Origin: Clostridia bacterium | GTDB lineage: Bacteria; Bacillota; Clostridia; Christensenellales; Borkfalkiaceae | Reading direction: 5' to 3' | Length of the DNA stretch: 5,234 bases | NCBI GenBank assembly: GCA_017616925.1 | Contig: JAFZXG010000112.1 | Location: 1-5,234 of the forward strand | In this document: positions 631 through 5,234 of the stretch, piece after piece | Layout: every line of letters begins with the position of its first letter | Numbering within the stretch: the stretch's first letter is position 1 | Translations under genes and position numbers: made by a program | The notes under the pieces: generated by a model | Database searches by the model: none | The model's input: the letters and a program-made list of their open reading frames with translations, nothing else | What the model was told of the DNA's origin: nothing

Positions 631-3609
631 ATGGACGAAAATGAGCAAGTAACGTCGCAGGAATCGCAAATGCAGCAGGATACTCAGACGCCGCAGCAGT
701 CTAAAAACCCGAAAAAACAAAAAAAGCGGAAAGAACCGATAAGACCTATAACTCCCGAAGAAAGAGCGGAATTCAGGGAAAAAAGAAGACAGTATAAAAA
801 CGCGCGCATAGCAAGGGGAAGATTTTTCAAAAACCTTCTTATCTGGATCTTGGGCGTACTTTTCCTTCCTACCGTAATTATCGTGACCATGGCGTTTATA
901 CCCGTCAAAATGTTTACGGGCAACAACAACGAAGTGGTGAGCGAAGATCTTGCGAACAAGAGTATTCTTAACGTCGCGATAACGGTTGCGACGAATTTTT
1001 CGGCGTACGGGTTTTCGGATTTTCCGATAGTGGAAAAGATGCTTACCGATCTGCAGGCAACCGAGATCATGGACGGCAAAACGCTCGGCGATCTCGTGAA
1101 TATCGATATTGAAAAACTTAACGCGATAAGATTCAGCAGTTCGGATTTCACAACGGAACTGCAGTCCTGCGTCGACGTGGTCGCAACGTTAGACACTTTG
1201 GGCGCGGTGGATATGCTCGGTGACTTCGGTAGGATATCGGTCATAAACGAATACTCGTCTGCGGGTACGATAGCGGACGTTACGACGGGTTCGGGCGCGG
1301 ATCGGACCGTGGCAGAAGGGAAGAACGCAAAGGAATTTTATTACTTGGTCTCGGCGGATAAGTACGAACGCGCCTTTACCGACGACGGAAAGATAGTTCC
1401 CGCGCTTGCCTCTGCCGCTGCGGACACCGAACTTTTCTATCCCGCATTAAAAGACGTCAAGTTGCTTGATCTCGTCGATATCGTGGACGAATCGTTCGGC
1501 AGGGTAACCGTCTCTTCGCTTCTCGACGTTTTCGGTGCGAGCAACGAGACGCTTATCGATGTTATCGGCGAAGACACGACCATCTCGGGAATAAAGGACT
1601 TCGACATGAACTCGGTGAAACTCTCGAGCGTCATAGAGATAAATTCGAGTACGCAAAAACTTTACGACGTCATTGTGGGCGCGACCGCCGCGACAAGCGC
1701 GGAAGAAGTCAACATCGGGCATCTTTCCGAATTCGACGTAAACGGTATTCTCCTGAAAGACGTTATAGCGATAGACACGGATACGCAGAAACTTTACGAT
1801 CTTATAGTGGGCGCGACGCCCGCGACCAGCGCGGAAGAAGTCAGCATATCCGATCTTTTGGATTTCAACGTTGACGACGTACTGTTAAAGGACGTCATAG
1901 CGATAGATACGGACACGCAGAAACTTTACGATCTCATAGTGGGTGCGACCGCCGCGACCAGCGCGGAAGAAGTCAGTATAGGGCACCTTACGGGTTTCAA
2001 TATCGACGGCGTGCTTTTATCTGACGTTATAGAGATAAGCGCCGAAACGCAGACTCTCTACGATATTTTAGTCAGCGCGACGCCCGCTACCAGCGCGGAT
2101 GAAATCACCATCGCCGACCTTTCGGATATCGATATCGACGCGGTGGAATTAAAGGCCATAATCGACGAGAGCGGGAACGAAGATCTTTACAGAATAATAA
2201 GAAAGGCGACGGGAGTTGACGACGGCGACGACGTTACCGTAGAAGATCTCGGAAATTTCAACGTAAACGATATTCCGCTTACCGCAGTGCTTACGGAAAG
2301 CGGGAACACCGTCATTTACGACGTGTTGAGACAGGCGACGGGTGCGGCGACCAACGCCGCGATAACCATCGGTTCTCTCTCGGCGTTCAACGTAAACAAC
2401 GTCGCACTCTCTTCGGTGCTTGCGATAGAAGGGAACGAAACCATCTACAACATATTAAGGGGCGCGACGGGGGCTGCAAGCAACGCCGCGATAACCATCG
2501 GTATGCTTTCGACTTCGTTCAATATAAACAACGTCACACTCTCTTCGGTGCTTGCGATAGAAGGGAACGAAACCATCTACAACATATTAAGGGGTGCGAC
2601 GGGCGCGGAGAGTAACGCGGCGATAACGATCGGGATGCTTTCGACTTCGTTCAACGTAAATAACGTCGCGCTTACTTCGGTACTTGCGGTAGAAGGAAAC
2701 GAAACGATCTACGACATATTACGGGAAGCGACCGCGGCGGCAAGCAACGCCGCGATAACCATCGGTATGCTTTCGACTTCGTTCGACGTAAGTCGCGTTT
2801 CTCTCGTAAGCGTACTGCCCGAAAGCGGCAACGCGGACCTTTACACAATACTCCGCGAAGCGACGGGCAAGAGTACGAACGCCGAGATCAAGATCGGTTC
2901 GCTTTCTTCGTTCGACATCACCGACGTTTCTCTCGTAAGCGTTCTGACGCCCGACAGCAGTAACGCGAAACTTTACACGATACTTCGCGAAGCGACGGGG
3001 GCTGCAAGCAATTCCGCGATAACGATCGGTTCGCTTTCGTCTTTCGATGTAGGCGACGTTTCGGTGGATACCGTTATCGATCCTTCGTATGCGGGCGGCA
3101 ACAAGGTGCTTAACGCCATACTCGGCAAGGGCTATACTTTAAGCCAACTCGGCACGGCTATCGACGATATGGACGTTTCCGAGATATTCGACGTGGAGTG
3201 CTTCACCACTACCGCGGCGGACGCGATAGATACGACCGTGAAATATTCCTATAATTCGGGCACGAAGACGTACACGCGGGACGACGTCGGCGGGACTTAC
3301 TATATATCCGAGAACGCGAAGATCTGGCTGTTCGTCTTATACGATTACGCGGGCGTCGATTCCACGGCGATAGGCGGCGGGTTTAAGACTGGTACGGGCG
3401 TCGCGTCGAGTTATACGGCGAAAGTCACCACTTTCGGCAACATAACCGACACTCTCGGCAGCGTTTCGCAAGGTATCATGGACGCGACGATACGTCAGCT
3501 TATACAGACGAACGTCATAGACGCGGGCGGTTCGGATTATTCGAATCTGTATCCGTACAGCCTGAACGATATACTCGAAAAAATGTCGGATATACTCTCT
3601 ACGCCTTAA
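631..3609 (+). CDS. Single-pass membrane-anchored protein with eleven tandem ~44-residue repeats, function unknown
   Basis: I do not recognise this 992-residue protein. The start has AGGAG at 620-624, six bases before ATG 631. Residues 1-67 are hydrophilic, Gln-rich and then strongly basic (KKQKKRK near 28-34). A hydrophobic segment follows at about 68-92, with no clear signal-peptidase site. By the positive-inside rule the remaining ~900 residues should lie outside the cell. Residues 93-343 form a non-repeated or degenerate region. Residues 344-825 form eleven tandem units, each with an LY/IY start, a conserved A-T pair at positions 8-9, a V/I-x-I/V strand near 17-19, an aromatic residue followed by N/D-V near 25-28 and an L-x-x-V/I stretch near 32-36. 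Residues 826-992 are a non-repeated C-terminal domain. There are only two Cys (180 and 857), no LPXTG motif and no second membrane segment. No catalytic motif is visible. A cell-surface spacer, adhesin or envelope scaffold is the likeliest role, but that is inference. No hairpin terminator follows it. Confidence 0.9.
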   Translation: MDENEQVTSQESQMQQDTQTPQQSKNPKKQKKRKEPIRPITPEERAEFREKRRQYKNARIARGRFFKNLLIWILGVLFLPTVIIVTMAFIPVKMFTGNNNEVVSEDLANKSILNVAITVATNFSAYGFSDFPIVEKMLTDLQATEIMDGKTLGDLVNIDIEKLNAIRFSSSDFTTELQSCVDVVATLDTLGAVDMLGDFGRISVINEYSSAGTIADVTTGSGADRTVAEGKNAKEFYYLVSADKYERAFTDDGKIVPALASAAADTELFYPALKDVKLLDLVDIVDESFGRVTVSSLLDVFGASNETLIDVIGEDTTISGIKDFDMNSVKLSSVIEINSSTQKLYDVIVGATAATSAEEVNIGHLSEFDVNGILLKDVIAIDTDTQKLYDLIVGATPATSAEEVSISDLLDFNVDDVLLKDVIAIDTDTQKLYDLIVGATAATSAEEVSIGHLTGFNIDGVLLSDVIEISAETQTLYDILVSATPATSADEITIADLSDIDIDAVELKAIIDESGNEDLYRIIRKATGVDDGDDVTVEDLGNFNVNDIPLTAVLTESGNTVIYDVLRQATGAATNAAITIGSLSAFNVNNVALSSVLAIEGNETIYNILRGATGAASNAAITIGMLSTSFNINNVTLSSVLAIEGNETIYNILRGATGAESNAAITIGMLSTSFNVNNVALTSVLAVEGNETIYDILREATAAASNAAITIGMLSTSFDVSRVSLVSVLPESGNADLYTILREATGKSTNAEIKIGSLSSFDITDVSLVSVLTPDSSNAKLYTILREATGAASNSAITIGSLSSFDVGDVSVDTVIDPSYAGGNKVLNAILGKGYTLSQLGTAIDDMDVSEIFDVECFTTTAADAIDTTVKYSYNSGTKTYTRDDVGGTYYISENAKIWLFVLYDYAGVDSTAIGGGFKTGTGVASSYTAKVTTFGNITDTLGSVSQGIMDATIRQLIQTNVIDAGGSDYSNLYPYSLNDILEKMSDILSTP
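1660..3105 (+). repeat. Tandem array of eleven ~132-bp coding repeats
   Basis: Units begin at 1660, 1792, 1924, 2056, 2185, 2314, 2443, 2575, 2707, 2839 and 2971. They are 44, 44, 44, 43, 43, 43, 44, 44, 44, 44 and 45 codons long. Two subfamilies are visible. Units 1-3 share ATSAEEV and end in an acidic ID/IS-x-x-TQ segment. Units 6-9 share NAAITIG and mostly a GNET end (unit 9 ends GNAD). Units 4-5 and 10-11 are divergent. Units 7 and 8 agree at 39 of 44 residues. At the DNA level, 2405-2462 and 2537-2594 are identical over 58 bases (offset 132), and 2476-2520 and 2740-2784 are identical over 45 bases (offset 264). Degenerate relatives of the unit appear just before (around residues 290-343) and after (from 3106) the array. 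Confidence 0.95.
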
Positions 3610-4448: not shown

Positions 4449-4754
4449 ATGGAAGAAAATTTAACTACTGCCGCACCCGTCGAAGAGACGGCGGCCGAAC
4501 CCGCGAAAGAAGGGGCTAAAGAAACCAAAAAATTCGTTAAAAGGATTCCGAGAAAGAAAGTCTGCGCGTTCTGTCAGGCTAAAACGGAAACCATCGACTA
4601 CAAGGACGTGGCGACCTTAAAGAAATATATCACCGAAGGCGGAAAGATCCTTCCGAGACGTATGACCGGCGTCTGCGCCAAACACCAAAGGATCTTGTCG
4701 CAGGCGATAAAGCGCGCGAGACTCGTAGATCTTCTGCCTTTCAAGGGCGAATAA
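4449..4754 (+). CDS. rpsR: 30S ribosomal protein S18, zinc-binding (C+) form with N-terminal extension
   Basis: Platform protein of the 30S subunit that binds next to S6. The S18 core begins at about residue 37: [29 protein letters not shown] split over 49-71, TGVCAKHQR at 73-81, and the basic [13 protein letters not shown] end. Cys39, Cys42, Cys76 and His79 form a complete CxxC...CxxH set. This is therefore the putative zinc-binding C+ version, which some Bacillota such as Bacillus subtilis have lost. The protein is 101 residues against a usual 75-85. The excess is an N-terminal tail (about residues 2-28) rich in Glu, Ala, Thr and Lys that looks disordered. No later in-frame ATG precedes the core, and AAGGAG (4437-4442) sits six bases before this ATG, so the extension is probably real. 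It is 19 bases downstream of ssb and is the last gene before a strong terminator. Confidence 0.98.
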
Positions 4755-4767
4755 GAAAAAAAGAAAC

Positions 4768-4800
4768 TCCCCCGCAAAAGATTTTGCGGGGGATCTTTTT
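4768..4800 (+). terminator. Rho-independent terminator of the rpsF-ssb-rpsR operon
   Basis: TCCCCCGCAAAA (4768-4779) pairs perfectly with TTTTGCGGGGGA (4782-4793) across a two-base GA gap. In practice the inner A-U pairs open to make a larger loop. The run TCTTTTT follows at 4794-4800. It starts 13 bases after the rpsR stop. The A run before the stem (4755-4766) could also let it act, less well, on the opposite strand. Confidence 0.95.
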
Positions 4801-4935
4801 ATTTGAGAAAACGTTTCAAACGAAAAGATAAAATCAAAAACAACAAAAAATGTTATTTTTTAGCATAAAAAACCCAAGAAAACGAAGTTTATGTGAAAAG
4901 TTTTCAAAAAAAATTTAAAAAATGGTGAAAAACGC
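4801..4935. other. A-rich non-coding spacer with A-tracts leading to a promoter
   Basis: No gene is seen here. The stretch consists mostly of A runs and includes two short A/T-only symmetries: AAAAAAT/ATTTTTT at 4845-4861 and TGAAAA-G-TTTTCA at 4894-4906. Dense A-tracts end directly at the -35 of the promoter at 4936, so this may act as an UP element raising its strength (inference). The 13-base symmetry resembles a catabolite-repression site but lacks the central CG and one base of spacing, so I do not call it one. Confidence 0.5.
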
Positions 4936-4964
4936 TTTACAAAGTTGAAAAAAAGTTGTATATT
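4936..4964 (+). promoter_or_regulatory. Sigma-A promoter for the structured RNA region
   Basis: TTTACA (4936-4941, 5 of 6) and TATATT (4959-4964, 5 of 6) are 17 bases apart, with A-tracts immediately upstream. The expected start, six to seven bases after the -10, falls at about 4971. That is exactly the first base of a perfect hairpin, and this coincidence strengthens both calls. Confidence 0.7.
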
Positions 4965-5037
4965 AACATTGTCGAAAGCGATGATAACGTTTTCGACTGC
5001 CGGCAGGGGCACAGAAAGTTGTTCGGCCGAAAGAAAA

Positions 5038-5106
5038 ATGCTCATCATTTTCCCCCTTATCATATATTATTCAGGAAGCAATGGACAGCGGTTCGTTGCT
5101 TTTTGA
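5038..5106 (+). CDS. Possible 22-codon leader peptide
   Basis: The frame from ATG 5038 begins MLIIFPLIIYY and ends RFVAF before TGA 5104-5106. The first eleven codons are Ile/Leu/Phe/Tyr-rich. The same frame stays open upstream to ATG 4981, which would give 41 codons. Only a weak GAAAG (5029-5033 region) precedes the short form, and none precedes the long form, which would start within ten bases of the predicted RNA end. The stop codon lies in the 3' arm of the 5069-5108 hairpin, where a translating or stalled ribosome would alter folding. A 23-codon frame is easily found by chance, so this rests on position and composition only. Confidence 0.25.
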   Translation: MLIIFPLIIYYSGSNGQRFVAF

Positions 5107-5108
5107 AT
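5069..5108 (+). promoter_or_regulatory. Long imperfect hairpin with U-run, possible internal terminator or pause stem
   Basis: Bases 5069-5085 pair with 5092-5108 around the loop CAGCGG: 17 contiguous pairs, of which about four are G-U. The inner core is AGCAAUGGA/UUCGUUGCU (5077-5085/5092-5100), followed by TTTT (5101-5104). The core plus U-run could terminate transcription about 134 bases after the start. The stem is only moderately stable, so a pause or switch role is as likely. Confidence 0.5.
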
Positions 5109-5167
5109 TTTAAATGGAGTTTCCGCCTTTACTTTTATCTCATCTTACATCTGTTCCGTTGCTTCCT
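5073..5167 (+). repeat. Long-range inverted repeat competing with the 5069-5108 hairpin
   Basis: AGGAAGCAATGGACAG (5073-5088) is complementary to CTGTTCCGTTGCTTCCT (5151-5167): 16 pairs with one U-G and a single bulged T, closing a 62-base loop. It uses the same 5' strand as the 5069-5108 hairpin, so the two cannot coexist. The two alternative 3' strands resemble each other as imperfect direct repeats (GTTCGTTGCTT at 5091-5101 and GTTCCGTTGCTT at 5153-5164). Confidence 0.7.
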
Positions 5168-5212
5168 TCTCGTCCGCTTTATGACTATAAAGCCCGCGGG
5201 AAACTTTTATAG
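5114..5212 (+). CDS. Possible 32-codon second leader peptide
   Basis: A frame from ATG 5114 to TAG 5210-5212 gives a Leu/Pro-rich peptide beginning MEFPPLLLSHL and ending YDYKARGKLL. No ribosome binding site is visible before the ATG. Its only argument is its position: the stop codon falls in the loop of the terminal hairpin (5190-5234), so a ribosome reaching the end would cover the hairpin's 5' arm and block it. Chance occurrence is entirely possible. Confidence 0.2.
   Translation: MEFPPLLLSHLTSVPLLPSRPLYDYKARGKLL
5176..5212 (+). promoter_or_regulatory. Two alternative hairpins that would sequester the arm of the terminal stem
   Basis: GCTTTAT (5176-5182) pairs perfectly with ATAAAGC (5187-5193) around the loop GACT. 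Alternatively CTATAAAG (5185-5192) pairs with TTTTATAG (5205-5212, last pair G-U), enclosing the self-complementary CCCGCGGG (5193-5200). Each uses the start of the 5' arm of the 5190-5234 stem, so only one of the three can form. This is the arrangement expected of a terminator/antiterminator choice. Confidence 0.5.
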
Positions 5213-5234
5213 ACAAAAAATTTCCTGCGGGCTT
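5190..5234 (+). terminator. Terminator-like stem at the right edge (T-run not visible)
   Basis: AAGCCCGCGGGAAA (5190-5203) pairs with TTTCCTGCGGGCTT (5221-5234): 14 pairs with one G-U wobble and a 17-base A-rich loop. The window ends exactly at the base of the stem in CTT, so the required U-run cannot be checked. On the opposite strand the stem would be followed by TATAGTC, which is not a good tail, so forward function is favoured. Confidence 0.6.

Follow-up and report, generated by a model that had tools for sequence, protein, structure and literature searches.

A predicted small RNA gene at the right end of the window

The window analyzed here, the whole of contig JAFZXG010000112.1 (5,234 bp) from a 0.9-Mb, 56% complete Clostridia bacterium genome (GCA_017616925.1), carries near its right end what we predict to be a free-standing small RNA (sRNA) gene on the forward strand. 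The predicted RNA of about 138 nt (4971..5108), both ends of which were inferred from a promoter and a terminator, starts with a 10-bp hairpin with a 7-nt loop that folds at the predicted first base (4971..4997). The hairpin is followed by a variable linker (4998..5039), which lies outside the matches of most relatives and forms a second weak hairpin in the window's copy. Downstream of the linker there is a near-invariant C-rich core of 25 nt (GCTCATCATTTTCCCCCTTATCATA, 5040..5064), the complement of a Shine-Dalgarno sequence plus AUG, and then an intrinsic terminator hairpin with an internal U run (5070..5107). The gene is preceded by a sigma-A-type promoter (-35 TTTACA, -10 TATATT, spacer 17; 4936..4964) that is conserved together with the RNA. 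With moderate confidence, we read this arrangement as the gene of a translation repressor acting in trans, the C-rich core of which would pair with the ribosome-binding sites (RBSs) of mRNAs.

A sequence-only reading of the window had suggested a structured RNA of no identified family, or an attenuator leader, at 4971..5234. Its structured RNA is in agreement with the promoter, the 5' hairpin, a covarying terminator and the absence of an Rfam match; no family reached its gathering score with the window's RNA or with the loci of 18 relatives, and the window gave only sub-threshold matches. The promoter and the 10-bp hairpin that it named are present, and the promoter recurs in relatives. Its borders had to be redrawn, because the conserved unit ends with its own terminator at 5070-5107, which had been overlooked, as had the near-invariant core and the conservation in two separate blocks.

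Relatives supplied 167 collected matches, five of which (L083, L086, L105, L143 and L153) are not this RNA. These five were excluded from the palindrome, folding, energy, register, alternative-stem and open reading frame (ORF) analyses and from the core profile, and are still counted in the tallies of neighbor genes, upstream promoters (138/165) and terminators. L116, which has no terminator, was retained in the collection. In the window, a promoter scan found 1 promoter versus 1.1 in shuffled sequences, so that the scan alone is no better than chance. That the promoter is more than a chance match follows from its recurrence in relatives: a promoter scoring at least 9/12 was found upstream of the core in 138 of 165 collected matches, far above the 2.8 expected after shuffling. 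We also note that this type of promoter is not specific for the RNA, as a similar sequence precedes a putative solute-binding protein gene (named by reading) in the window's own genome.

The 264-nt region of the earlier reading folds better than all of 200 dinucleotide shuffles (z -5.15). In the collected copies, the predicted RNA measures 86-168 nt (median 106). The sequence of the 5' segment varies among relatives, and 133 of 147 copies of the segment reach a folding energy of -3 kcal/mol or lower, versus 81 of 147 shuffled ones (one shuffle each). The core is predicted to be mostly unpaired, with a median of 0.90 and values above 0.8 in 102 of the 147 copies. A terminator-like hairpin was present in 157 of 166 collected matches, versus 35 after shuffling. 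Covariation in the terminator was evaluated in an alignment of 42 of the 44 same-type copies (39 distinct), with L058 and L142 left out (short contig or gaps). The genus-type terminator forms a 17-bp stem in which 99.7% of cells are paired and two-sided changes occur at 6 pairs; none of 500 shuffles scored as high, and slid registers dropped to 55% or less. Between families, the sequence of the terminator stem differs widely. As judged from the collected sequences, the 5' hairpin, core and terminator recur as a set with the promoter, beside different genes.

Conservation and distribution

A DNA search of 101 genomes with positions 4930-5234 as query found matches in 42 of the 44 genomes of the genus, the window's own included (E <= 2e-16); the genus genomes without a match were G026 and G034, 58% complete. 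Conservation was confined to two blocks, approximately 4930-4981 (the promoter) and 5034-5114, separated by variable sequence, and in the other families of the order the matches narrowed towards the core (5040-5068). Copies that were fetched with a core pattern conserve the core by construction, a selection that does not apply to the DNA search with 4930-5234. Positions immediately flanking the 19-mer pattern are likewise nearly fixed; on the 5' side, T, C and G were found in 162, 157 and 151 of 162 copies, respectively. Divergent copies in families f8, f9 and f16 retain CCCCTTATCATA and the layout.

Of 396 genomes searched from the order, 142 matched the pattern CATCATTTTCCCCCTTATCATA with up to 2 mismatches, and none matched the reversed pattern. 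The match in G146 (f21, its only one) is antisense to a ribosome-binding site and thus false, which leaves 141 genomes. The core was found in 20 of 34 genomes in f1, 30 of 32 in f3, 25 of 31 in f6, 24 of 30 in f24 and 30 of 32 in f32, and in the smaller families in 4 of 6 (f18), 3 of 4 (f29), 2 of 3 (f10), 1 of 1 (f9) and 2 (f16). Some genomes carry 2 to 5 copies. The genome G088, from another family, has five core matches (L040-L042), and is the sole Hfq-positive genome among 26 tested.

Elsewhere in the class, 17 of 277 genomes matched, versus 2 with the reversed control. Seven of those 17 loci were read, and six of them were antisense to a Shine-Dalgarno sequence plus start codon, while one was not opposite a start. 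A scan of named genomes with the exact 19-mer gave at least 119 stretches, and Candidatus Borkfalkia, Pumilibacter intestinalis (strain CLA-AA-M10) and Candidatus Protoclostridium were among the matches listed. Five of the at least 119 stretches (three from Peribacillus/Bacillus, one each from Halobacillus and Thermoflexales) have neither promoter nor terminator and are situated opposite start codons. In the NCBI taxonomy, Borkfalkia belongs to Christensenellales and Pumilibacter to Eubacteriales, both within Clostridia; we take the two to belong to one GTDB order. A metagenome-assembled genome titled Roseburia sp. (L076) also bears the RNA, and its label may be wrong. With respect to viral carriage, a 24-mer had no exact match in IMG/VR.

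The core as a complement of ribosome-binding sites

The core is the complement of ATAAGGGGGAAAATGATGAGC, which comprises a Shine-Dalgarno sequence, a spacer and a start codon. Among the examined matches from outside the order, 11 of 12 are antisense to a start codon preceded by a Shine-Dalgarno sequence, and in 10 of these the frame stays open for 84 codons or more within the stretch read. When the complement of the core was slid along the 262 translation starts called in the collected stretches, the best fit placed its second ATG at the start codon, with an identity of 43.8%; shuffles averaged 38.1%, and 1 of 300 did equally well. Allowing up to 3 mismatches, ATAAGGGGGAAAATGATG matched 213 times across 45 genomes, a count that includes the RNA itself, versus 120 for the reversed sequence (summed). 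Hfq was detected in 1 of 26 bearing genomes, suggesting that the RNA is likely to act without it.

The complementarity to Shine-Dalgarno sequence and AUG points to trans-acting translational repression, in the manner of RoxS/RsaE, as the likely mode of action. The RNA would be transcribed from 4971 to about 5108, its exposed C-rich core (5040-5064) would pair with the RBSs of mRNAs without the help of Hfq, and the pairing would hinder 30S binding and thus repress translation in trans, much like C-rich sRNAs of the RoxS/RsaE type.

Several results weigh against this interpretation. The window's own core is predicted to be partly paired (0.69 unpaired), and in the register test the reversed string attained 42.0% identity. 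In 47 genomes, the 11-mer complement of the core's 3' half had 72 occurrences, of which the RNA itself accounts for about 47; the remainder of about 25, versus 18 for the reversed control (summed), gave no indication of a dedicated target. The 14-mer complement, with up to 1 mismatch, left about 99 matches versus 78 reversed (summed), and pattern searches for a single conserved mRNA target gave no conserved long complement among the matches listed. The 20 candidate target sites that were read, among the matches listed, belong mostly to different genes, which by reading encode a DeoR-type regulator, lipoproteins, HslU (twice), a ferredoxin-thioredoxin-reductase-like protein and others. Duplex energies point in the same direction: on translation starts the core did little better (-11.7) than shuffled cores (mean -10.8, sd 0.8), 2 of 30 shuffles had a larger energy difference between start and coding sites, and base composition mostly explains the outcome of the test.

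The core may be held fixed by many short pairings, by a global action, or by a protein that reads it. Very tentatively, the RNA might be a "universal anti-RBS", a complement of the lineage's consensus RBS that serves as a global, Hfq-free brake on initiation instead of acting on a few chosen targets; we consider this unlikely. If true, it would explain why the core is near-invariant without a dedicated complementary message in any genome.

Alternative interpretations

The sequence-only reading had favored an attenuator leader with its gene just to the right of the window. A leader of the next gene, whether attenuator or riboswitch, would be consistent with the promoter, the long fold and the GC-rich hairpin at the right end, and also with the strand of many neighbors: a called ORF stands within 800 nt downstream in 145 of 167 collected matches (the calls are mechanical), and 87 of these ORFs are on the same strand. 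The other 58 are on the opposite strand, however, and there is no shared downstream gene, with the largest homologous group counting 15 members; on the upstream side stand groups of a Gate-domain family (34) and of S18 (11). Moreover, the RNA has its own terminator (5070-5107) and matches no Rfam family. The alternative pairings that the earlier reading had described do exist in the window, but are peculiar to its copy or shared by few others. The loop complement (4981-4987/5057-5063) is present, and its ATGATAA was found in 1 of 44 same-type copies; of the mutually exclusive stems, the alternative arm (5155-5167) is present, and TGCTTCCT was found in 8 of 44; the terminator-like right end exists as a GC-rich hairpin (5190-5234), and was found in 1 of 44. 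The earlier reading had recommended testing its proposed stems for covariation; these stems are not conserved, and covariation was detected in the terminator stem. Nor does the likely next gene suggest the anticipated resistance gene or amino-acid operon, as contig C120 of the same genome encodes a 237-aa protein without Pfam match and then a C_GCAxxG_C_C redox protein. Given neighbor genes of differing kind and orientation, and alternative stems that lack conservation, an attenuator is unlikely, and we regard a leader function of any type as very improbable.

The other alternatives concern the core itself. It could be a protein-binding site or decoy within an sRNA gene, in which AUCAU on both sides of UUUCCCCCUU would be kept by protein binding and not by mRNA pairing. 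This possibility, which we consider doubtful, would account for some 25 near-invariant nucleotides for which the searched genomes gave no long complementary partner; on the other hand, no conserved partner gene adjoins the RNA, and the match to Shine-Dalgarno sequence plus AUG would have to be a coincidence. The core could also encode a short peptide, LIIFPLII. By inspection of the pattern matches in the 396 genomes, substitutions in the core are mostly synonymous in this frame, and 80 of 159 copies have an in-frame ATG, GTG or TTG before any stop in the 90 nt that precede the core. The remaining 79 have no in-frame start, 31 of 159 have a stop codon directly before the frame, two f8 copies are one U shorter inside the core, which breaks the frame, and by inspection the frame often enters the terminator hairpin. 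The peptide was set aside as improbable on account of the missing starts, the adjacent stops and the shortened U run. Finally, the core could be read from the minus strand, as the ribosome-binding site of a gene, with ATGATGAGC. It does resemble a good translation start, the matches outside the order are such starts, and ORFs of at least 30 codons follow in 31 of 155 copies; the median ORF has only 16 codons, though, and a promoter of at least 9/12 was found on this side in 2 of 159 copies (shuffled 1), versus 137 of 159 on the plus side. On this promoter and ORF evidence, a minus-strand gene was also set aside, as scarcely credible.

Comparison with known small RNAs

No match to a RoxS/RsaE model was found over the RNA at gathering score in Rfam, the library of which we take to include the RsaE model. 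By sequence, the RNA has the own promoter and terminator of an independent gene that would be expected of a C-rich, Shine-Dalgarno-pairing sRNA, and it is predicted to have the unpaired C-rich segment complementary to the Shine-Dalgarno sequence, with a pairing energy that is not separable from composition. The RoxS/RsaE sRNAs of Bacilli and Staphylococci are likewise independent genes, whose C-rich stretches can pair with Shine-Dalgarno sequences (PMC4409812, PMC5419742, PMC8216469), and a C-rich region of RoxS pairs with the Shine-Dalgarno sequence of ppnKB and hinders initiation (PMC4409812, PMC8216469). The RoxS/RsaE family has several C-rich regions, whereas the copies inspected here have a single C5 core each; the core of about 25 nt and the palindrome far upstream also differ, and we do not claim relatedness by descent.

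CsfG of endospore formers resembles the predicted RNA in that its CU-rich stretches, which lie in loops or between helices, are highly conserved (PMC3574147) and in having no known mRNA target as of 2022 (PMC9147052). Its region, too, was formerly taken for a leader. It differs in its three C-rich regions (PMC4409812), where our comparison found one core, and in its control by sigma-F and sigma-G (PMC9147052), where we find a sigma-A-type promoter. FsrA of Bacillus also acts on mRNA targets through C-rich regions (PMC8216469, PMC4409812), but has three of them and belongs to the Fur regulon (PMC4409812), compared to one core here.

The RNA family thus appears to be new as far as tested, and of a kind that is already known. 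A literature search found no paper with the core sequence strings, and none that joined Christensenellales with small or noncoding RNA, or Borkfalkia with sRNA. The RNA is a deeply conserved candidate regulator in an order of mostly uncultured gut bacteria, and its near-invariant core without a long partner raises the question of how a generic RBS antisense would choose its targets, apparently without Hfq. Since the bearing records include the named strain Pumilibacter intestinalis CLA-AA-M10, this question is open to bench work.

A palindrome upstream of the promoter

A palindrome (TGTTATTTTTTAGCA, 4851..4865), which matches the consensus TGTKAN5TMACA at 9 of 10 positions, lies 85 bp upstream of the -35 element and is a putative regulator site that would control the predicted RNA gene. 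Upstream of the -35 element, palindromes scoring 9 or 10 of 10 were found at 68 of 147 promoters versus about 3 in shuffles, and 47 of the 68 are 69-70 or 83-85 bp away from it. Across 850 kb of the 8-kb stretches collected, 30 exact palindromes are no more than 300 bp from a core, and 1 is farther away. A whole-genome search turned up exact sites in 16 of 18 genomes, frequently in numbers that did not exceed those of the reversed control, and 20 stretches that were read for a palindrome regulon showed no coherent gene set. In five f32 genomes, no exact palindrome at the RNA was among the matches listed. The half-sites presumably resemble TnrA/GlnR boxes, with a spacing of 5 here and 7 there; the spacing presumably also differs from that of a Rex box, and the palindrome lies upstream, where the RoxS/RsaE family has its Rex site just downstream of the start. 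In three genomes of one genus (G333:C20, G359:C26 and G227:C1; L328-L330), two exact palindromes stand 43 bp apart in like places.

Repeat segment and surrounding genes

The GC-rich inverted repeat at the contig end (5190..5234) lies outside the predicted RNA. The arm complementary to 5073-5085 (5155..5167, forward strand) is part of a repeat segment, noted in the window at 5155-5234, at L038:1829-2290, at L043:1882-2308 and at the right end of L035 (contig C120). Two relatives that were inspected have tandem repeats of 142-154 bp that copy the terminator together with a TGCTTCCTTCTCC...GTGCAGGAAGCA segment. The alternative arm thus probably belongs to a separate repeat and not to the RNA, and the arrangement looks like a small repeat element that settled in the terminator.

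Similar sequence occupies the window's right end and one of the two ends of C120. Contig C120 probably continues the locus and carries the likely next gene, because the two contigs overlap by 163 bp at 93% identity and the neighbors are similar in relatives; the likeness of its genes to the downstream neighbors in relatives was judged by reading. As the contig stops at 5234, the tail past the last hairpin cannot be seen.

At the left edge of the window, the start of a DAGK_cat gene is truncated. It is followed by an ORF of 992 aa (631-3609) without Pfam match, after which stand the genes for S6, SSB and S18; the S18 gene ends at 4754, and a terminator-like hairpin (4768-4793) follows it. The product of the 992-aa ORF contains many similar repeats of about 50 residues and has a hydrophobic N-terminal stretch.
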